The notes under the pieces are model-generated. The model had not been told where the DNA came from and searched no databases. It saw only the letters and a list, made by a program, of their open reading frames with translations. This document shows positions 15,075 through 28,373 of a DNA stretch of 34,603 bases, piece after piece. The stretch is taken from positions 23,654 to 58,256 of the forward strand of contig JAHDBM010000016.1 in assembly GCA_020630395.1 (NCBI GenBank), in the 5' to 3' direction. Within the stretch, counting starts at the first letter, position 1, and each line of letters opens with the position of its first letter. A program made the position numbers and the translations under genes. This stretch comes from Flavobacteriales bacterium (lineage in GTDB: Bacteria; Bacteroidota; Bacteroidia; Flavobacteriales_D; CAJJDF01).

Positions 15075-18000
15075 TTGAAAAAAGAAGTCTTGAAAAAAGC
15101 CTTAGTTCACATACTCATTTTTCTTACTTTAGTAACTGTTGGATTTTCTCAAGATGAAACACCAATACGCTTTCAACACTTAGGAATTCAAGAAGGACTA
15201 TCTCAGTCTTCTGTTTTTGATGTCGTTCAAGATCATTATGGTTTTGTATGGATAGCAACTCAAGATGGCCTTAACAAATATGACGGTAAAAACATCACCA
15301 CTTTTTATCATGCTCAATTTGATAGTAATACAATACTTTCTAACACGATAAACTGTTTATTAGTAGACGAAAAAAGAGATCTTTTGTGGGTTGGTACTGA
15401 AAGAGGGTTAAACACTATTGATTTTAAATCTAATAAAATCAGTAGTTTATTATTTGGTAATCATAAATATGGAGCAATTGAAGCTATTGTAAAAGATAGT
15501 ATAGGTAATATATGGATTAATGCTAAAAATAAAGGGGTTGTAAAATATACTGATGATGGAGTTAAAACGGTTATTAAAAGTAATCCTACTTCAATTATTA
15601 TATATAAAAATGAATTAATAGCTTCATTTAATAACCAATCATTTTCTATTGATATTCAAACAGATAGTGTAATTACTAAGCGTGAGTATAAAAACTTATT
15701 ATATGTAGCTGAAAGTAAGTTTGGTGTTTTTTATTTAAGTAATAATAGCATTCTATTTTCTTACAAACATAAAACACCAATAGATTTAGTAAAACGATTT
15801 AAATTACTCGAAAATAAAACATTTACAAAAATTTTGGTAGATGGTAATCATTGTTGGATTGGTACTGAGCAACACGGCTTATTCCATTATGATATTCAAG
15901 CCAATAATGTAGAGAATTACCAATACAAAGAAAATATTAAATACACTATTTCAGATAATTATATACGATCAATTTATAAGGATTATGCAGGTACTATATG
16001 GATAGGAACTGATAATGGAGGGATTAGCTTTTTTGACTTTACTAAACAAAACATAAAATATTTAGGCAAAGGAGATAATGGTCTTTCGAGTAAAATAGTA
16101 TGGGCAATTGAGGGAGATGAATATGGAAATGTTTTTATTGGAACGAATACAGGGTTAGATATTTATAATCAATTTAAACAAACGATATCTAATTATACCA
16201 TCAATGATGGTAAGTCTTCTACTGTAAGATCTGTTATTGCTAAAGATCAGTTATTGGTAGGTACAGACGAAAGCTTCTATAAAGTAAATATTAATGGATC
16301 AAAACTATTGTTTATAGACCTTTTTAAGGGAATAAAAGACTCCTTACTTCAAGATATTGCAATTTATACGATTACTCCATATAAAAAAAATGAATATTGG
16401 CTTGGTACTAGCAAAGGCCTTATACGATTTGATACTAAAAATAAATCGTACACATGTTTTAATCGAAAAACATCTAATATTTCAAATGAAGTTGTTAGAG
16501 CGATATATAAATCAGAAAAAGGGGATTGGTGGATTGGTACCGAAGGAGGTTTAAATAGAATGTTTGTTGTTAATGATACTGTTAGTACTTTTTCTTCTTT
16601 TTTACCAGGAAATAACCCTAATACAATTAGCGGCTCAATAGTAACTACTATTATAGAAGATGATAGTAATTTTATATGGGTAGGCACTTATGATGGAGCA
16701 TTAAATAGATACAACCCGGTTAATAGAACATTTAAAAACTACTCTGTTAAAGATGGTCTATCTAATAATGCGGTATATGGTATTTTAAAAACAGATTCTT
16801 TATTATGGGTTAGTACAAACAGAGGTATTTCATCTTTAAACTTAAATACCAAAGAGTTTAGGAACTTTTACGAATCTGATGGATTACAAAGTAATGAGTT
16901 TAATACAGGAGCATTTTATAAGACTAAATACGGAGAATTATTTTTTGGAGGAATTAACGGAGTTAGTAATTTTTATCCTACAGATTTAAAAAAGAACAAG
17001 CAGTCTCCATTAATGGGGCTAACTAAAATTTTAGTAAACAATAAACCGCTAAATACCTTAAGTAATTACGAGAATAAAAGTTTAAACGGAATTGAAGTAG
17101 TTGAATTTAACTACACACAAAACAACATTAATATCCATTTTGCTAGTTTACATTATACGAATACGCAGAATAATAAATACCGTTATTTTATAAGAGAACT
17201 TCAAGACACCTCATTAATAATAGATAAAATAGGTGTTGCCAATTACTCTGCTTTATCTCCAGGAGAATATAATCTAGTTGTTTATGGAAGTAATTCTGAT
17301 GGGGTTTGGAGTGAGCAACCGCTAACATTAAAAATTATTATTCATCCACCATTTTGGGGCACATGGTTATTTAGAATATTTGTAATAGGGCTTATAGGTT
17401 TAATTGTGTTTTTTATTATTCGTTTTCGAATTAGATCGGTAAAAAAGAGTAAAGCGTTACTTGAATCATTGGTTAAAAGAAGAACAGAGACTATTTTTAA
17501 GCAAAAGGAACAAATAGAAAAACAGAATAAAGATTTAGAGAAAGAGAAAGAGAAGGCAGACAATGTTTTACATAAAATTTTTCCAGATAAAATTGCTCAA
17601 AAATTAAAAAATAAAGGAAAAGTAAAGGCAGAACATTATCAACAAGCTACTATTATGTTTGCCGATTTCGTTTCTTTTTCTTCTATATCGAGTAAGCTTA
17701 AGCCAGAGGAAACGGTAAGTCAATTAAACCGATATTTTAAAGAATTCGATAAGATTATCATTAGAAATAATTTAGTTCAAATTAAAACTATTGGCGATTC
17801 GTATATGACAGCTGCAGGTATTCCAAAAAGTAATAATACTAATGCTATTGATTCTGTTCTTGCAGGTTTGCAAATACAATCTTACATGCAAAATTTGTAT
17901 GAAGAAGATAATACGAATTGGAGGTTAAGAGTAGGAATTAATACAGGAGAGTTAGTAGCAGGTGTCTTAGAAACCAAAAGGCCACTATATGACATTTGGG

Positions 18001-18827
18001 GGAGCTCAGTTAACATTGCAAGCCGAGTTCAAGATGAAGGAAAACCAGGAAAAGTTAATATATCTGAACATACCTACAGAATTATAAAACCATTTTTTAA
18101 TTGCTCTGCAAGAGGAGGCATAATGACAAAGAATGTTGGTGTAATTAGCATGTATTTTGTAGATGGAATTAGATCAGAATTATCTCAAGATGGTGAAGGT
18201 AAATTTCCGAATAGAAGATTTTGGAGTTATGTTAAAACATATCTAGAAAGTGAATTAAGATATAATGAGTTAGAGCATGATTTCATTAAGTATTTAAGAG
18301 ATAATTTAGATAAAAATTTACATTACCATTCATTACATCATACTATTGATGTTATTGATGCTGCGGAAAGAATTGCCTTAGCTGAAGGTGTTTTTGATGA
18401 ACGTATGTTATTGATTAAAACAGCAGCACTTATTCATGATGCTGGTTTTATTAAGCAGTATAACAACAATGAACCTGTAGGGGTTGAGTATGCTAAAGAA
18501 TGGCTTCCAAAATATGGCTATAGTGCTAAACAAATAGATAAAGTGTCAGAATTAATTTTAGCCACTAATGTAAGCCACAAGCCTAAAAACAAACTGCAAA
18601 GAATTATTAAAGATGCTGATTTAGATTATTTAGGCAGAGATGACTTCGAATCTATAAGCGATAAACTTTTTATGGAGTTACAAGAAAGGGGTATAGTTGA
18701 AACCAAAGAAGAATGGGATAAAATGCAGGTGAAGTTTTTTAACACCCATCAGTTTTATACAGCATACTCTAAAGATCGAAGGGCAAAAAAAAAAGAATTA
18801 AATAAGCCTTTTTTAGCTAATGTCTAA
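15075..18827 (+). CDS. Propeller sensor fused to adenylate cyclase and HD phosphodiesterase-like domain
   Basis: A 1250-residue membrane protein. Signal peptide about 1-25. Residues about 30-660 carry some eleven propeller motifs of the two-component-regulator type (WIATQDGLNKYDG, WVGTERGLN, WIGTEQHGLFHYD, WLGTSKGLIRF, WIGTEGGLNRM ...), then a Y_Y_Y domain to about 757. One transmembrane helix follows (about 763-784), then a charged coiled coil to about 840. The class III cyclase domain (about 855-1000) has metal Asp864 (FADF) and Asp908 (IGDSY), adenine-specifying Lys904 (KTIGD) and Asp973 (YDIWG), and Asn980/Arg984 (VNIASR), so adenylate cyclase activity is predicted. The last 180 residues hold an HD domain: H1085-x3-H1089 (YHSLHHTIDV), H1121-D1122 (ALIHD), Asp1182. 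The start is TTG at 15075 after AAAGGA, immediately behind an in-frame TAA; there is no ATG nearby. A typical histidine kinase core is absent. Confidence 0.93.
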   Translation: MKKEVLKKALVHILIFLTLVTVGFSQDETPIRFQHLGIQEGLSQSSVFDVVQDHYGFVWIATQDGLNKYDGKNITTFYHAQFDSNTILSNTINCLLVDEKRDLLWVGTERGLNTIDFKSNKISSLLFGNHKYGAIEAIVKDSIGNIWINAKNKGVVKYTDDGVKTVIKSNPTSIIIYKNELIASFNNQSFSIDIQTDSVITKREYKNLLYVAESKFGVFYLSNNSILFSYKHKTPIDLVKRFKLLENKTFTKILVDGNHCWIGTEQHGLFHYDIQANNVENYQYKENIKYTISDNYIRSIYKDYAGTIWIGTDNGGISFFDFTKQNIKYLGKGDNGLSSKIVWAIEGDEYGNVFIGTNTGLDIYNQFKQTISNYTINDGKSSTVRSVIAKDQLLVGTDESFYKVNINGSKLLFIDLFKGIKDSLLQDIAIYTITPYKKNEYWLGTSKGLIRFDTKNKSYTCFNRKTSNISNEVVRAIYKSEKGDWWIGTEGGLNRMFVVNDTVSTFSSFLPGNNPNTISGSIVTTIIEDDSNFIWVGTYDGALNRYNPVNRTFKNYSVKDGLSNNAVYGILKTDSLLWVSTNRGISSLNLNTKEFRNFYESDGLQSNEFNTGAFYKTKYGELFFGGINGVSNFYPTDLKKNKQSPLMGLTKILVNNKPLNTLSNYENKSLNGIEVVEFNYTQNNINIHFASLHYTNTQNNKYRYFIRELQDTSLIIDKIGVANYSALSPGEYNLVVYGSNSDGVWSEQPLTLKIIIHPPFWGTWLFRIFVIGLIGLIVFFIIRFRIRSVKKSKALLESLVKRRTETIFKQKEQIEKQNKDLEKEKEKADNVLHKIFPDKIAQKLKNKGKVKAEHYQQATIMFADFVSFSSISSKLKPEETVSQLNRYFKEFDKIIIRNNLVQIKTIGDSYMTAAGIPKSNNTNAIDSVLAGLQIQSYMQNLYEEDNTNWRLRVGINTGELVAGVLETKRPLYDIWGSSVNIASRVQDEGKPGKVNISEHTYRIIKPFFNCSARGGIMTKNVGVISMYFVDGIRSELSQDGEGKFPNRRFWSYVKTYLESELRYNELEHDFIKYLRDNLDKNLHYHSLHHTIDVIDAAERIALAEGVFDERMLLIKTAALIHDAGFIKQYNNNEPVGVEYAKEWLPKYGYSAKQIDKVSELILATNVSHKPKNKLQRIIKDADLDYLGRDDFESISDKLFMELQERGIVETKEEWDKMQVKFFNTHQFYTAYSKDRRAKKKELNKPFLANV

Positions 18828-19623
18828 ACAGTTAAACATCATTCAAGAGCAAGCATTTTTAGAAAGTGAAAGCATATTGAACGATAATTTATTTAGTTAT
18901 ACATTATTTCCATTTAAGAATAAGTTGTCTCCAACTGAGATAGACAATACGGCTACTCTTCTTGGTAAAAGAATGGAAGTTTTTTTTCATCATTATTTAA
19001 CTTATCATGAACAATATGAAATAATAAACCATTCAATTCAACTAATTGATAATAAAGTAACCATTGGAGAATTAGATTTTATTGTTAAAAACGAAGAAAG
19101 ATTTCTACACATAGAACTTGCGTATAAGTTTTATCTATTTGATCCTTCCATTTTATCAAAGGATAACATGGGGAAGTGGATTGGCCCAAATAGAAATGAT
19201 TCTTTAGTTAAAAAGTTAACAAAACTAAAAGAAAAGCAATTTCCTTTATTATACAGTAAAGAAGGAAAAGCGTTTTTAAACAATCATCATATTTCTATAG
19301 ATAGTGTAGACCAAGAATTATTACTGTTGGGTAAATTATACTTACCATATAATTATAAAGAGCATAATTGGATGCTTAACAAAGCATGTTTTGATGGTTT
19401 ATGGATGCGGTTTAATCTATTTAAACACATAGAACATGTTGATGTGGAGTTTTTTATACCTAGAAAATTTAATTGGCACATAAACCCAACTCATCATAAT
19501 ATTTGGCTAAGCAAAGAACATATTTTAGTTCAAATTAATGAACAAATGATGGCAAAAAAATCTGTTTTAGTTTGGCTAAAGCAGAATGATAAATACGAAA
19601 AACTATTTATTGTTTGGTGGTGA
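18820..19623 (+). CDS. DUF1853-family, PD-(D/E)XK nuclease-like protein
   Basis: A 267-residue soluble protein. The segment TIGELDFIVKNEERFLHIELAYKFYL (about residues 86-111) resembles the core of DUF1853, with the GELD Asp and the HIELAxK Glu-x-x-x-Lys pattern of a PD-(D/E)XK nuclease fold. GPNRNDSLVKKLTKLKEKQFPLL follows, as in the family. No nuclease activity has been established for this family to my knowledge. The ATG overlaps the end of the cyclase/HD sensor by eight bases, indicating translational coupling and perhaps a functional link. Its own end overlaps the convergent bestrophin gene by 21 bases. An intrinsic terminator follows inside that gene. Confidence 0.82.
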   Translation: MSKQLNIIQEQAFLESESILNDNLFSYTLFPFKNKLSPTEIDNTATLLGKRMEVFFHHYLTYHEQYEIINHSIQLIDNKVTIGELDFIVKNEERFLHIELAYKFYLFDPSILSKDNMGKWIGPNRNDSLVKKLTKLKEKQFPLLYSKEGKAFLNNHHISIDSVDQELLLLGKLYLPYNYKEHNWMLNKACFDGLWMRFNLFKHIEHVDVEFFIPRKFNWHINPTHHNIWLSKEHILVQINEQMMAKKSVLVWLKQNDKYEKLFIVWW

Positions 19624-21997: not shown

Positions 21998-24820
21998 TTA
22001 CTGCTTAATTAATTTAATAGTAGTTTGCTTCCCGTTTTTTGTTGTTAGCATCATGATATAAAGGCCATCATTACCATTTATAGAAATAGGTAATATCTGT
22101 TCATTAGTTCTGTTTTTTTCAAAGACAATGCTGCCTTTTAAATCTAAAATCTTTATGTTGATTGGTTCTTGTAATTCATTAAAATCAAGGATAAAAACAT
22201 CATTACTTGGGTTAGGGTATACACGCACAATATTATCTAGTAAAGACTCATTTAAACCAACACATTGAATAATATCAATATCAACAGAATCTCTTGCGAT
22301 ACAACCTGTAGATGTTTGTCCAACTTCAACCCAATATGTATAATTACCCAAACCTAATATATTGGCATCTACTAAAATTGAGCTAGAAATATCTCCAGTA
22401 TTCCAAACATAATTATCGTAAGTTCCTGCTAGTAATATAATAGAGTCATTTTGACAAATTGAAATATCTGGGCCTAAGGTTAAAGCAGGCAATATTGAGG
22501 TGGTTATGATTGTATAGGTAGTTACACTATCACAGCCAGTATTGCTTGGTAAAGTGTCATTAAAAACAGTATCACTATAATACCATGTTCCGGCTATTAA
22601 TGTACTATCTCCATGACAAAAAGTTACAGAGTCGATATAAAAACTACTATAATTTACTGTTATTTCATATTGCAATATAGAGTCACAACCGTTAGCTGTA
22701 CCCAATGTATCGTAATAGGTGCCAGAGGTATTATAGGTGTTACCTGCAATTATTATACTGTCACAAACAGTATCGGTAATGGTGTCGATAAAAGAGTTAT
22801 AAACCGTTAAATTTAATGTAATCACTGAATCACAACCATTAGTATTTTGCAATGTGTCCCTGTAAGTTCCAGAAGTATATTCCGTATTACCAAAAACTAA
22901 AGCGCTATCACAAACAGTGTCAAAAATAATAGTATCAGTTGCATTATAAATAATAATCTCGTATACAATTATAGAATCACAACCTTTATTAGTTGTTAAT
23001 GTGTCGTAATAAGTTCCCGAATTTGTAAGGGTATTTCCGGCAATAATAATACTGTCACACAGAGTATCTGTAATAGTATCGATACTACTATTATGAATGG
23101 TTAATTCATACCTAGTTATAGAATCACATCCAGATGTTGTGAGGAGTGTATCATAATAATTACCCGAAATCATATATGTATTTCCATTTATAACAATGCT
23201 ATCACAAGCTGTATCGACAATCGTATCTAATGTACTTTGATTAACAATTAGCTCGTAAATAATGATAGAATCACAACTGTTTGTCGTTTGTATTGTATCT
23301 CTATAAGAACCAGATGAATATCTCATTATGCCAAAAATAATAGTGCTGTCACAAACTGTATCAAAAAGAGTGGTGTCATCAGCATAATGTACAGTTAAAT
23401 TAATAACATAAGCTGTATCAGATAAGGTATCGTAATAAGTTCCTGTAGTATACCAAGTATAAGTTCCTGATAAACTAACTAAACTATCACAAGTTGTATC
23501 GCTGATAGTACTATCATAAAAGCTACTTAAACTCCATAATTCAGATCCATTTGTTCCGTCATCTGCAGAAAAATAAATAGTAGCATTATAATTTACAAAA
23601 CTAATGATGTTAGAAGATGCTGATCCAGGATTAATGTCTTCTACCAATGAAGCAATTGTGCCATTGTATTTCCATAGTTCAGTTCCATTAATTCCATTAT
23701 CTGCTTCAAAATAAAGTTCGTTACTGTAAACAAAGAAGTTATCAATATTAGAAGATGCAGGACCTACATTTATATCTTGCACAAGGGATATAGTAGTTCC
23801 ATCAAAAACACATAATTCACTTCCAACTCCTGTTGAATTAGCAATGAAATAGATATTTCCCGCATATTCTATAGCATTATTTGGATTAGCACTTGCTGCA
23901 CCAATAAAGAAGTCTTGAACTAAAAAAGTGGATGTACCATCATATCCCCATAATTCATTACCACTACTACCATCATTAGCAACAAAATATAAACTACCAT
24001 TAAATTTGAAAAAGTTTTTTGGATAAGAATTTCCTGCCCCAGGATTAATATCGAATACTAATGTAATGGTGTCCCCATCATATTTATATAACTCAAAACC
24101 ACTGCTACCATCAGTTGCAGTAAAATAAATATTTCCTAAATATGAAATAGGTTCTTGAGGACCAGAACCAGAAAGCCCTACAAATAAATCTTGAACTAAT
24201 GATACAGATGTATCGTTATAAGTAAAAAACTCATTTCCGCTTGTATCATTTCTAGCATTAAAATATAGATTACTATCAATGGCTTTCATATAAAAAGGGT
24301 TTGAACCTGGAGCACCAGGTCTAATATCAAATAATGTTAAACTATCTCTATTATATTTCCATAATTCACCACCATCAATACCATTGTTTGCAGTAAAATA
24401 TAGCCCATCTTTATATACTACAAAAGGTTGTGTAGATGAAAAAGAAGAATTAAAACCGGTTCTAATATCTTCAATTAACGAAATAGAGTCACCATTAAAC
24501 ATCCAAAGTTCTTCTCCTACACTAGGTTCATTAGCTCTAAAGTACAAGTTACTATCATAAGTAATTAAATAATTAGGGTTAGAACTACTACTACCGGTTA
24601 CTAAATCTTGAACTAATGTTGAGGTATCGTTATTAAATTTCCATAATTCTTGTCCGGATAATCCATCATTTGCAACAAAATACAGGGAATCGTTATAAAC
24701 ATGAAAATTAAAAGGAAAAGAACCTGAAGAACCTGAGTTTATATCACTTACTAATTTTAAATGTTGACTATTAACTGATAAGCAACTAATAATGATAACA
24801 AGAGTAAAAAGCTTTTTCAT
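21998..24820 (-). CDS. Repeat-rich T9SS surface protein (ELWK repeats and CDS repeats)
   Basis: A 940-residue secreted protein. Signal peptide about 1-18 (MKKLFTLVIIISCLSVNS). Residues about 20-435 are nine repeats of roughly 45 residues with the theme LYFVANDG-x-x-G-x-ELWKYN followed by a VQDI-NPGSSSSNP-like linker, probably a beta-propeller or similar. Residues about 440-780 are seven repeats of about 49 residues with theme CDSIIIAGNTYxxSGTYYDTLxTxxGCDSI-x-x-YEL, each with two Cys that could form a disulfide. An Ig-like segment (LTLGPDISICQNDSIIL...WNTGDISSSI) and a type A T9SS sorting domain (RVYPNPSNDVFILDF...GLYIMMLTTKNGK) end the protein. Function probably adhesive or structural. A -7 box precedes the ATG. 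Confidence 0.9.
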   Translation of the reverse strand: MKKLFTLVIIISCLSVNSQHLKLVSDINSGSSGSFPFNFHVYNDSLYFVANDGLSGQELWKFNNDTSTLVQDLVTGSSSSNPNYLITYDSNLYFRANEPSVGEELWMFNGDSISLIEDIRTGFNSSFSSTQPFVVYKDGLYFTANNGIDGGELWKYNRDSLTLFDIRPGAPGSNPFYMKAIDSNLYFNARNDTSGNEFFTYNDTSVSLVQDLFVGLSGSGPQEPISYLGNIYFTATDGSSGFELYKYDGDTITLVFDINPGAGNSYPKNFFKFNGSLYFVANDGSSGNELWGYDGTSTFLVQDFFIGAASANPNNAIEYAGNIYFIANSTGVGSELCVFDGTTISLVQDINVGPASSNIDNFFVYSNELYFEADNGINGTELWKYNGTIASLVEDINPGSASSNIISFVNYNATIYFSADDGTNGSELWSLSSFYDSTISDTTCDSLVSLSGTYTWYTTGTYYDTLSDTAYVINLTVHYADDTTLFDTVCDSTIIFGIMRYSSGSYRDTIQTTNSCDSIIIYELIVNQSTLDTIVDTACDSIVINGNTYMISGNYYDTLLTTSGCDSITRYELTIHNSSIDTITDTLCDSIIIAGNTLTNSGTYYDTLTTNKGCDSIIVYEIIIYNATDTIIFDTVCDSALVFGNTEYTSGTYRDTLQNTNGCDSVITLNLTVYNSFIDTITDTVCDSIIIAGNTYNTSGTYYDTLGTANGCDSILQYEITVNYSSFYIDSVTFCHGDSTLIAGTWYYSDTVFNDTLPSNTGCDSVTTYTIITTSILPALTLGPDISICQNDSIILLAGTYDNYVWNTGDISSSILVDANILGLGNYTYWVEVGQTSTGCIARDSVDIDIIQCVGLNESLLDNIVRVYPNPSNDVFILDFNELQEPINIKILDLKGSIVFEKNRTNEQILPISINGNDGLYIMMLTTKNGKQTTIKLIKQ
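22500..23505 (-). repeat. Seven tandem 147-bp coding repeats
   Basis: Coding units of about 49 codons repeat seven times. They diverge at the DNA level but keep the pattern CDS...SGTYYDTL...GCDSI. The unit length is a multiple of three, so gain or loss of units keeps the frame. The first unit is shorter in its second half and lacks the GCDS motif; the seventh begins CHGDST. Confidence 0.85.
23530..24760 (-). repeat. Nine coding repeats of the ELWK type
   Basis: Units of about 45 codons with motif LYF-x-A-x-(D/N)G-x-x-G-x-ELWKYN occur nine times in the N-terminal half of the 940-residue protein. The fourth (NEFFTYN) and seventh (SELCVFD) are the most divergent. Confidence 0.85.
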
Positions 24821-24917: not shown

Positions 24918-27900
24918 TTAAAAGAATGCTCTCATTTCAATAGTTCCAGAGTGTATAGTTTTTATGCCTTCTGGTTTTCTTCCATTATAGTTTAACGTTA
25001 AACTAAGGTTTTTAGCGATTTTTTTATTTAATAGAATTTCCCAAGTAAAATTATTTCCTTTTTTTAAACCATTAAGTATTTCATACTCAAGCGAAGAATT
25101 TTCAGATCCATTATATACAATGTTAAGATAATTTAAGCGAGTATTAAGGTTTACGTTATTAATGATGTTGTAGGTTGCTTCTGCACCAAGAGTATGAATG
25201 ACAGCAAAATCTAGTCCTAAGGTGTTTTTTTTCTCTTCGTAGGTGTAATTAAGACTAAAAAATTGATTTTGATCTTTTTGAAACGTACTATTGAAAAACG
25301 ACTTTAAATATGCTATACTGTAGTTTCTAGAAGATAAAAAATCAGAGATTAATGATTTGTTTCCTATTCGATTATCCCAGTTAAACAGAAGTTTTTTTAC
25401 TTTATATCTACTAGTTACTTCATGATAAATATTAGCTCTCGAATCAAATCCATTCGATAATAATGTTTTACCTCTTGTATCTTGAAAATTATAACTTATT
25501 CCATATTTATAACCTGTTCGGTTAAAGAAAACTGAAGCCAAAACTTGTTTGTTAATGGATAATAAATTTGTGTCGGATATACCATCAATAAAAGGATTTA
25601 AACTTTCTTCAAATTTTTCTTGAGTTGTTTTTCTATCCACTTTATAAGCTGTTAAGGTAGAAAACTTAGCTAAACCTTTTAAAAATTTACTTTTCGATTT
25701 TCGAAACAATTGCTTTGGGTTTATTCGAATAGATTGGCTAAACTTATTGGTATATGCGGTTATATAATTGTTACTCTGTGTAAATACCCGTATATAATCC
25801 GCTTGATCTTGATAAATGGCTATTTCAAATTCGTTTAGTTCTTTTACACCATTTTCATTATAATCAATCCAAGCATAGTTACCTTGTCCAGAGTTTACCT
25901 GTATGTAAATAAATTCTCTTTTTTGTTCTAAACCTGATCCTATTTCGTAATAGGTATTCCATTGTATTAATCTTTTAAAGATTGATGTAGAAAAATCAGT
26001 TTGACTAATAAACGTATTATCGGGAGCTTTGCCTAAAGTAGAGTCTATTATGGTTAATTTTCTGTAGGCAGTATTTCCCGTCAATTTTGTTTTTTTATTT
26101 TTACTAAGGATGGTGTAAGAAAGTCCTAAGTCATTAGAAAAAGCCGATCGACTTAAGGATTTGGAAGAGCTGTTTTTTTCTTCTCTAAACCTAGCATATA
26201 ATTTATAGTTTGCTTTTGAACTATCACCATTTGCAATATAAGCCATTCCATCATAAAATTGATAACTTCTTGGTATTAGACTATCTCCAATCTTAAATAA
26301 ATTTCGCTCAGTTTCATCTTCATAACCAATTTTAAACCTACCAATGTTTTGTTCAACTTTAGCTATATGGCGATAAAAAGAGGTTTGTTCATTAGATTGA
26401 GTAGATAAGTAACTCCCGTTATAATTAATAAGTGTTTTTTTTAGCTTGAAATTAGACACTACCTCATGTTTTATACCTTGGTAAAAAGTAGCGATATCTA
26501 ACAGGTTTATGGCATATTTGATTGAACCAATAGATGATTTAGACAAACCGAATTGTGAATTACCAACTAATTGAGGCGCATTAAATGTTTGTGACAATAT
26601 ATTCCAATTTCTAGAAAACTCAACTGGTCTGTATCGTTCAACAGGCTGAAAATCGATACTTATAAATTCGATATTGGTATTATTAGATAGTACCCATGGG
26701 TTTTTCTTTTGTTGCAACTGCTTTTTTGCTTTTAAGCCAAAACGAGTTCCTAAACCTATGTCATTTTGTTCATCAAGTTTAGAAAAAGTATTAATATCAT
26801 TATTCGACATGGCAACATCAGCAAGTAAGGTTAAGTTATCATTTATTTCCCATGTATTTTCAAAAGAGATGAGTTGTTTTGTTTTGGGTGCAATTAATAA
26901 TATAACAGGTTCATGATCTCCTCTTTTAATAATTTGACCGTTAATCGTATCAGGCTTAACCCACCTGTATACTCTACCAAATGCGCTAAAGCCATCTTGA
27001 ATATAATTTCCATTTCCTGCTCCAACAAAAGAAAACCTTAATCGAAATAAGTTTGAATCACTTTTTTGAGAAAATTCAAAAATGGAGTAACCAAGAGAAT
27101 CTTTTTTATTGTATAAGACTGTATTTTCTTCAAACCCAACACTGTCATCTCGATAAATAAAAGCTGCCTGTATATCATCTCCGGCATTAAATAATACTTG
27201 TTTTTCAGGATCATTTAGCTCTTGTTGTAAGGGTTGATTTTTATGATCTTGTTCAGAGTAAAAATTGAATGTGCTTTTCCATTTTTTGTTTGTAAATGTG
27301 GCTTGTACGTTTGCTAAAGAACGTACATAATTTTTATCACTGTATTGAAATTGAATTACAATTCGTTTGTTTTTAGTTATAAGTTGTTGTGGGGTAAAAA
27401 TTATTTCGGCTGTATTATAATCAATCGTATAATCTTGATCGGCTCCTCTTTTTAATAACCTTCCATCAATAAAAACTTGTTCAGTTCCTGATAGTACAAT
27501 AATAGTTTGTTCTCCTTCAGATCCAATTAATTTATATGGGCCTTGATTTCCTTCAATACCTTGAACAGTATTGGTTGCAAATTTACCCCTAGAAATAGCT
27601 AAATCTGTTTTTGTATATAACTGACTAGAATCATTAAAGTTAAACCCTTTTTCAAAAGAAATTCCTTTAGCTTTTTTTTGAAAACGCATAAAATAAGAGT
27701 CGTTTCTAGCTGTGATAAAGTCTCCGGCAATCAGTTTCCACTTATCTTCATTGTATAATTGAATAAACACTTGGTCAAAATCTTGCAATTGTTGTGTATT
27801 TCCATCAGGTTGTATGGGGATATTGTTATCGGTAATAGATGCCATAATGGAGATGTCATCAGCAATTTTTCCTGATAATTGAAGGTTAAAACTAGAATTT

Positions 27901-28373
27901 ACAGCTAAATTTTGATTATTACCTACGGTAAGCCCTCTTGAAATACTACCCGATTTATTTAATCCTCCAAGTCCAAGTACGTCAACAGAGGTTTCTTCTT
28001 TTTCATCTATTCTAAATGGGTTTTTATAGACATATCGTTCTTGAATAAGATTGGTGTCTTTTAATTGAGTTCTAAAACTTAAGTTGGCAGAAAAAGTTCG
28101 ATATTCAATTCGTAAATTTACGGGTAAATCTGATTTCCATAATAAGGAGGCTGACGAAAAATCTAGATCATATAGTTCGTTTTTTGCTGTGTCGTTACCT
28201 TTAAAAACAATAAAGCTTGAAGGGATTATACTTAATGAGTCTAATACGGTAATAGAATCAGTAATACGTATTTTTTTTATTTGGATATCTGGGTTAGATT
28301 GTCCATTAGCATAGTCACAAAAGACTAGAAGAAAAGTTAGTATTAATAATCGTTTTACTACAATCACTATCAA
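24918..28373 (-). CDS. Giant outer-membrane protein related to the SprA family
   Basis: A protein of about 1150 residues with a signal peptide (VKRLLILTFLLVFCDYANGQ). The segment GSISRGLTVGNNQNLAVNSSFNLQLSGKIADDISIMASITDNNIPIQPDGNTQQLQDFDQVFIQLYNEDKWKLIAGDF (about residues 160-240, shown in parts here as evidence) closely resembles a conserved block of the SprA translocon proteins: ITDNNIPIQPDGN, TQQLQDFDQVFIQL, LIAGDF. The following long run of alternating aromatic strands and the terminal IEMRAFF with final Phe suggest a large beta-barrel. It is much shorter than SprA (over 2000 residues), so it is a paralogue, not SprA. No ATG starts the frame: TTG at 28373 or GTG at 28367 are possible. 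The TTG is part of a TAGTTTTG promoter-like box, which favours GTG. Confidence 0.82.
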   Translation of the reverse strand: MIVIVVKRLLILTFLLVFCDYANGQSNPDIQIKKIRITDSITVLDSLSIIPSSFIVFKGNDTAKNELYDLDFSSASLLWKSDLPVNLRIEYRTFSANLSFRTQLKDTNLIQERYVYKNPFRIDEKEETSVDVLGLGGLNKSGSISRGLTVGNNQNLAVNSSFNLQLSGKIADDISIMASITDNNIPIQPDGNTQQLQDFDQVFIQLYNEDKWKLIAGDFITARNDSYFMRFQKKAKGISFEKGFNFNDSSQLYTKTDLAISRGKFATNTVQGIEGNQGPYKLIGSEGEQTIIVLSGTEQVFIDGRLLKRGADQDYTIDYNTAEIIFTPQQLITKNKRIVIQFQYSDKNYVRSLANVQATFTNKKWKSTFNFYSEQDHKNQPLQQELNDPEKQVLFNAGDDIQAAFIYRDDSVGFEENTVLYNKKDSLGYSIFEFSQKSDSNLFRLRFSFVGAGNGNYIQDGFSAFGRVYRWVKPDTINGQIIKRGDHEPVILLIAPKTKQLISFENTWEINDNLTLLADVAMSNNDINTFSKLDEQNDIGLGTRFGLKAKKQLQQKKNPWVLSNNTNIEFISIDFQPVERYRPVEFSRNWNILSQTFNAPQLVGNSQFGLSKSSIGSIKYAINLLDIATFYQGIKHEVVSNFKLKKTLINYNGSYLSTQSNEQTSFYRHIAKVEQNIGRFKIGYEDETERNLFKIGDSLIPRSYQFYDGMAYIANGDSSKANYKLYARFREEKNSSSKSLSRSAFSNDLGLSYTILSKNKKTKLTGNTAYRKLTIIDSTLGKAPDNTFISQTDFSTSIFKRLIQWNTYYEIGSGLEQKREFIYIQVNSGQGNYAWIDYNENGVKELNEFEIAIYQDQADYIRVFTQSNNYITAYTNKFSQSIRINPKQLFRKSKSKFLKGLAKFSTLTAYKVDRKTTQEKFEESLNPFIDGISDTNLLSINKQVLASVFFNRTGYKYGISYNFQDTRGKTLLSNGFDSRANIYHEVTSRYKVKKLLFNWDNRIGNKSLISDFLSSRNYSIAYLKSFFNSTFQKDQNQFFSLNYTYEEKKNTLGLDFAVIHTLGAEATYNIINNVNLNTRLNYLNIVYNGSENSSLEYEILNGLKKGNNFTWEILLNKKIAKNLSLTLNYNGRKPEGIKTIHSGTIEMRAFF

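Follow-up and report, generated by a model that had tools for sequence, protein, structure and literature searches.

A 34,603-nucleotide stretch of DNA from a Flavobacteriales bacterium (the window) encodes a membrane receptor that is probably bifunctional, a class III adenylate cyclase and a putative cAMP phosphodiesterase in one chain that would set the local level of cAMP from both sides. We place the probability of this reading at about two in three. That one receptor makes and destroys cAMP was proposed in the original prediction, which was made from the DNA alone, and the proposal is now favored by comparative evidence and by a predicted fold. It is supported by the co-occurrence of the C-terminal HD domain family with class III cyclases, the adjacency of their genes, their recurrent fusion, the fusion of the HD domain to cNMP-binding domains, and a modeled fold that resembles class I phosphodiesterases (PDEs). 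The features of the receptor are included in Table 1.

Table 1. Coordinates in the window of the receptor, its segments and the downstream gene.
Feature	Position	Strand	Details and basis
Propeller - Y_Y_Y - TM - class III cyclase - HD receptor	15075..18827	+	1250 aa; frame open over 1250 codons, TTG start
Putative signal peptide, ~residues 1-26, KKALVHILIFLTLVTVGFSQ	15075..15152	+	read from sequence
Two beta-propellers, 12-13 Reg_prop-type blade motifs	15171..17144	+	Reg_prop 1.6e-28; 4a2l 1.4e-93; regular expression
Y_Y_Y domain, residues 694-757	17154..17345	+	Pfam 1.7e-9
Single transmembrane helix, ~residues 765-784	17367..17426	+	sequence reading
Signaling coiled coil / cyclase-transducing segment, residues 785-848	17427..17618	+	HNOBA-type match 809-844; AlphaFold2 long helix
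Class III nucleotidyl cyclase domain, residues 850-1030	17622..18164	+	Guanylate_cyc 8.6e-47
HD hydrolase domain, residues 1062-1245	18258..18809	+	PF01966 at residues 1088-1182, 5.7e-8; conservation; AlphaFold2 model; class I PDE-like predicted fold; residues listed: H1085, H1089, H1121, D1122, E1133, T1164, D1182, E1201, Q1218, F1221
DUF1853 gene, downstream	18820..19623	+	overlaps last 8 bases of the receptor gene

All of the Pfam domain calls on the receptor lie above their curated cut-offs. The arrangement predicted earlier, with propellers and Y_Y_Y outside, one membrane helix, a cyclase and a C-terminal HD domain, is borne out by Pfam, by the match of the ectodomain to the solved HTCS sensor 4a2l and by reading of the sequence. 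The number of propeller motifs had been given as about eleven; the propellers themselves are confirmed, and the count is 12 by regular expression and 13 by eye. The Bacteroides HTCS sensors (4a2l/4a2m) have the same ectodomain of two propellers and Y_Y_Y, whereas their output consists of histidine kinase, receiver and DNA-binding domains and that of the receptor is a cyclase-HD pair. Neither HisKA nor HATPase was found by Pfam in the 1250-residue protein. The expectation that propeller and Y_Y_Y sensors normally drive histidine kinases has to be qualified, as in Bacteroidia they commonly drive class III cyclases too, with or without an HD domain. In an AlphaFold2 monomer model of residues 785-1250, one long helix enters the cyclase and a mostly helical link connects the cyclase to the HD domain, which is consistent with a signal that may reach both domains alike.

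The cyclase domain scores 159.5 bits with PF00211 against a curated cut-off of 21.9. The six catalytic residues named in advance were all found at the predicted positions: D864 and D908 for metal binding, K904 and D973 in the purine site, and N980 and R984. These residues are kept in 46-48 of the 48 fused cyclase-HD relatives, and the K904/D973 pair, the established ATP-type pair of class III cyclases, is present in 47 of them. From its sequence, the domain appears to be a class III adenylate cyclase with an intact ATP-type site that should make cAMP, and it is the only class III cyclase in the source genome. A separate observation concerns a fused cyclase-HD protein of 459 residues (L102:1931-3307), in which the cyclase site has decayed (IEIQGH, YTLTG) and the HD domain is intact.

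The HD domain carries the metal ligands H1085, H1089, H1121-D1122 and D1182. The HD residues named in the original prediction, including D1182, are in place, and the ligands are nearly invariant when 101 HD domains are aligned. H1085, H1089, H1121, D1122, G1124, T1164, D1180 and E1201 are invariant in this alignment, D1182 is found in 100 of the 101 domains, and Q1218 and F1221 are found in 96/100 and 99/100, respectively. In the fused relatives, H1085, H1089, H1121 and D1122 are conserved in 49/49 and D1182 in 48/49. The HD-GYP signature (HHExxDGxGYP) is absent from the receptor sequence. The assignment to class I PDEs had originally been drawn from the match of HSLHHTIDV to HNxxHAxDV. The match exists, and its use as a class I PDE diagnostic was rejected, as HxxxHxxxV together with HD is common to many HD hydrolases, 2pq7 and YedJ among them.

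The structure of the HD domain, modeled by AlphaFold2 from an 83-sequence alignment (pLDDT 90.9), was compared with class I PDEs and other HD hydrolases as had been suggested. Judging by titles and numbering, the best 50 VIA-align entries are class I PDEs, with Z values of 16.6-17.7 over 189-206 residues on a scale where, according to the tool's note, a Z of ~14 is attainable by helical models without clear relatives. The values are 17.7 for PDE10A (192 residues, rmsd 2.7 Å), 17.2 for PDE7A and ~16.7 for PDE2A and PDE5A, and the match extends beyond the HD core into the C-terminal helices. Foldseek places YpgQ first, followed by 2pq7 and then PDE4 and PDE5, all near an E of 1e-3, with a TM of ~0.55 to the class I PDE fold. 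In a profile search the nearest solved structures are of the YpgQ/YedJ type, such as 2pq7 (7e-9), and the PDEs follow at an E of ~0.02. There is no Pfam match of PDEase_I (PF00233) to the HD domain of the receptor; 15 of the 83 family members match it weakly, below the cut-off (best E 1.3e-4). With hhalign, Q1218xxF1221 is paired with the Gln/Phe clamp of the PDEs, at a score that is equaled or exceeded in 26 of 100 column shuffles.

Taken from sequence and model, the HD domain likely works like a class I PDE. It is not filed as a member of PF00233 because PDEase_I is not reached, YedJ/YpgQ-type proteins come first by profile and the QxxF alignment is non-significant. Class I PDEs (PDE10A, PDE7A, PDE5A, PDE4D) share the predicted fold over 192-204 residues, an initial HxxxHxxDV motif and the metal-binding residues (H, HD, D), but they have long insertions that are missing from the HD domain, which lies below the Pfam PDEase_I cut-off. 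The YpgQ/YedJ-type hydrolases (5dqv, 3gw7, 2pq7) have the same HD superfamily core and are closest by sequence, yet none of them is among the best 50 VIA-align entries. We know of no linkage of these hydrolases to cyclases.

The association of the HD family with cyclases was determined in 295 Bacteroidia genomes, with genome sampling and phylogeny partly controlled. HD homologues were found in 191 genomes, with a strong match in 152, and class III cyclases in 179. Of the 152 genomes in which the HD match is strong, 150 have a class III cyclase, as against 8 of the 104 that have no HD match. When one genome per family is used, the median Fisher p for the co-occurrence is 4e-13, and within seven families the HD domain and the cyclase were gained or lost jointly, with no case of opposite moves. 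Fused genes inflate co-occurrence, hence the genomes whose best HD domain is standalone were counted separately, and a cyclase was found in 65 of these 67. This count, together with gene adjacency, led us to reject co-occurrence as a trivial product of fused genes. A cyclase lies within 5 kb of 11 of 40 standalone HD loci, which include related species, compared with 0.47 expected, and the ends of several of these neighboring genes overlap or nearly touch. On the HD tree the label fused or separate changes 6-7 times, at least two of the changes being forced by well-supported branches, and therefore fusion or fission recurred. The HD domain is also fused to cNMP_binding followed by a SpoIIE phosphatase (L087, L095) or by a histidine kinase/HisKA (L098). 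The linkage to cyclases is evidence of a common pathway, not of what the HD domain catalyzes.

A search for the same architecture, also suggested at the outset, found the full propeller-cyclase-HD arrangement in ~20 further full-length genes across Bacteroidia (~1260-1354 aa), a recurrence that goes far beyond what chance would give. Some of the relatives that have all of these domains are from Flavobacteriales MAGs (L038, L039). The cyclase-HD pair is also found after TPR repeats (L116, ~907 aa) and after short membrane or soluble N-termini (~460-630 aa). Of 20 long cyclases examined, 13 have a propeller and none has an HD domain. The propeller-cyclase receptors that lack it (L132-L139, L142, L146, L148, L150, L151) stop at or just past the cyclase, and several genomes with such receptors (e.g. 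G128, G159, G091) contain a standalone HD domain. The source genome has a distant standalone HD paralogue (L008, 193 aa, 27% identity, very long branch) and ten cNMP_binding matches. In two other proteins of 860-880 residues (L093 and L094) an HD family member is C-terminal. L093 contains TPR repeats and an N-terminus that resembles a TIR-type domain, which Pfam did not confirm, and a class III cyclase gene adjoins it.

Tandem Usp genes adjoin 16 of the 40 standalone HD genes (L043-L045, L051, L052, L054-L058, L061, L062, L064, L067, L075, L078) as well as several fused cyclase-HD genes (L112, L114, L116, L118, L120), and at L062 the cyclase, HD and Usp genes stand in one row. Usp is an established cAMP binder in mycobacteria (PMC11107214). 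The cAMP-binding universal stress protein Rv1636 (PMC11107214) is a Usp-family partner in a cAMP circuit; the candidate partners proposed here are Usp proteins with tandem domains, encoded next to an HD gene or a receptor gene. Tandem Usp proteins are a possible cAMP-binding partner of the cyclase-HD module.

The annotated neighbors of the receptor gene are dxs, a T9SS Reeler protein, DUF1853, bestrophin, yebC and SDR. The suggestion that a polysaccharide is sensed found no support, as neither SusC/SusD nor a CAZyme was seen among the annotated neighbors, and dxs, the T9SS Reeler protein, DUF1853, bestrophin and yebC give no hint of the ligand. The DUF1853 gene is probably co-transcribed with the receptor; as a conserved partner it was rejected, since it is not beside the receptor relatives examined. 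Elsewhere in the window, a 1151-aa open reading frame (24918-28373) has no Pfam or NCBIfam match and is adjoined by a T9SS protein with ELWxxDGT repeats (21998-24820).

Several other roles can be envisaged for the HD domain and the cyclase. The HD domain could hydrolyze a related nucleotide (AMP, dNTPs or pyrophosphate-bearing nucleotides, as is known of YpgQ-like proteins) and so clean up around the cyclase, as would suit the YpgQ/YedJ-type proteins being closest among solved sequences and YpgQ being first in Foldseek. This is unlikely in light of the near-exclusive linkage to class III cyclases, the cNMP-binding fusions, the adjacency of Usp genes and the PDE-like extended fold. The HD domain could also be a sensor of cAMP, non-catalytic or allosteric, that feeds back on the cyclase; its position on the output side of the cyclase and the mostly helical connection in the model would fit this. 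A pure sensor is expected to lose some of its metal ligands, but these are kept in essentially all copies, including the standalone ones, and L102 keeps an intact HD domain beside a decayed cyclase, so that we consider a sensor highly improbable.

The degenerate cyclase of L102 could instead be taken to mean that only one half works in the window protein as well, and GGDEF-EAL proteins with one dead half are a precedent for this. As the catalytic residues of both halves are all present in the window protein, a dead half is quite improbable. It is also conceivable that the messenger is not cAMP, either because the cyclase makes cGMP or because the HD domain acts on cyclic dinucleotides like PgpH/HD-GYP, and HD families with the latter activity do exist. 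With an ATP-type K904/D973 pair in nearly every fused relative, no HD-GYP signature and an HD linkage that is to class III cyclases, another messenger would be most surprising.

A fusion of this kind has been described in Marchantia and other streptophytes, where both activities of CAPE (combined adenylyl cyclase with phosphodiesterase) were measured (PMC5159850). CAPE combines a class III adenylyl cyclase with an HD-type phosphodiesterase in one membrane protein (PMC5159850), as does the receptor if the reading given here is correct. In CAPE the PDE is N-terminal and two TM helices lie between the domains, whereas the receptor has the reverse order and a single TM helix before the cyclase. 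CAPE contains a true class I PDE and has no extracellular propeller sensor, unlike the receptor, in which a propeller sensor is present. Being eukaryotic, CAPE is presumably an independent fusion. In the open-access papers searched, no bacterial HD-type cAMP phosphodiesterase, no cyclase-HD fusion and no account of this HD family was found.

For the bifunctional receptor, the following mechanism is proposed. Ligand binding to the periplasmic double propeller and Y_Y_Y domain would cause a change that the single TM helix and a parallel coiled coil pass on to the cyclase. The homodimeric class III adenylate cyclase, with its intact ATP-type residues, would convert ATP to cAMP, and the C-terminal HD domain would act as a metal-dependent phosphodiesterase that converts 3',5'-cAMP to AMP. 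The output of the receptor would then depend on the ratio of the two activities and stay local. The pulse of cAMP that was originally envisaged is unsupported, and an enzyme pair that holds a set-point, maintains an insulated local pool or is regulated in opposite directions would suit the sequence just as well. Elsewhere in Bacteroidia, the HD domain may act as a separate protein beside cyclases and Usp or fused to cAMP-binding domains.

We know of no account of how Bacteroidia switch cAMP off. A clear PDEase_II was seen in 3 of 99 Bacteroidia genomes, and in none of 148 genomes of the phylum (Bacteroidota) does PDEase_I exceed the cut-off; class I and II PDEs are nearly absent from Bacteroidia, with CpdA-type class III enzymes outside the comparison. 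The HD family is a good candidate for a cAMP off-switch of Bacteroidia that has so far been overlooked, and an HD family that tracks cyclases so closely is a direct and testable answer to the question. A wider proposal, which we advance tentatively and at somewhat less than even odds, is that the family is a hitherto undescribed class of cAMP phosphodiesterases in bacteria, related in minimal form to the class I fold of eukaryotes, that it is the principal means by which Bacteroidia switch off cAMP, and that cyclase, HD and Usp form a conserved signaling module. If true, the HD family would fill the PDE gap in Bacteroidia as far as classes I and II are concerned, and it would provide, in bacteria, a relative of the class I PDE fold, to which important drug targets belong. 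The receptor would be a compact natural example of the synthesis and degradation of one messenger in one chain, and the window protein would represent the version of the cyclase/HD/Usp module that is sensor, maker and destroyer.
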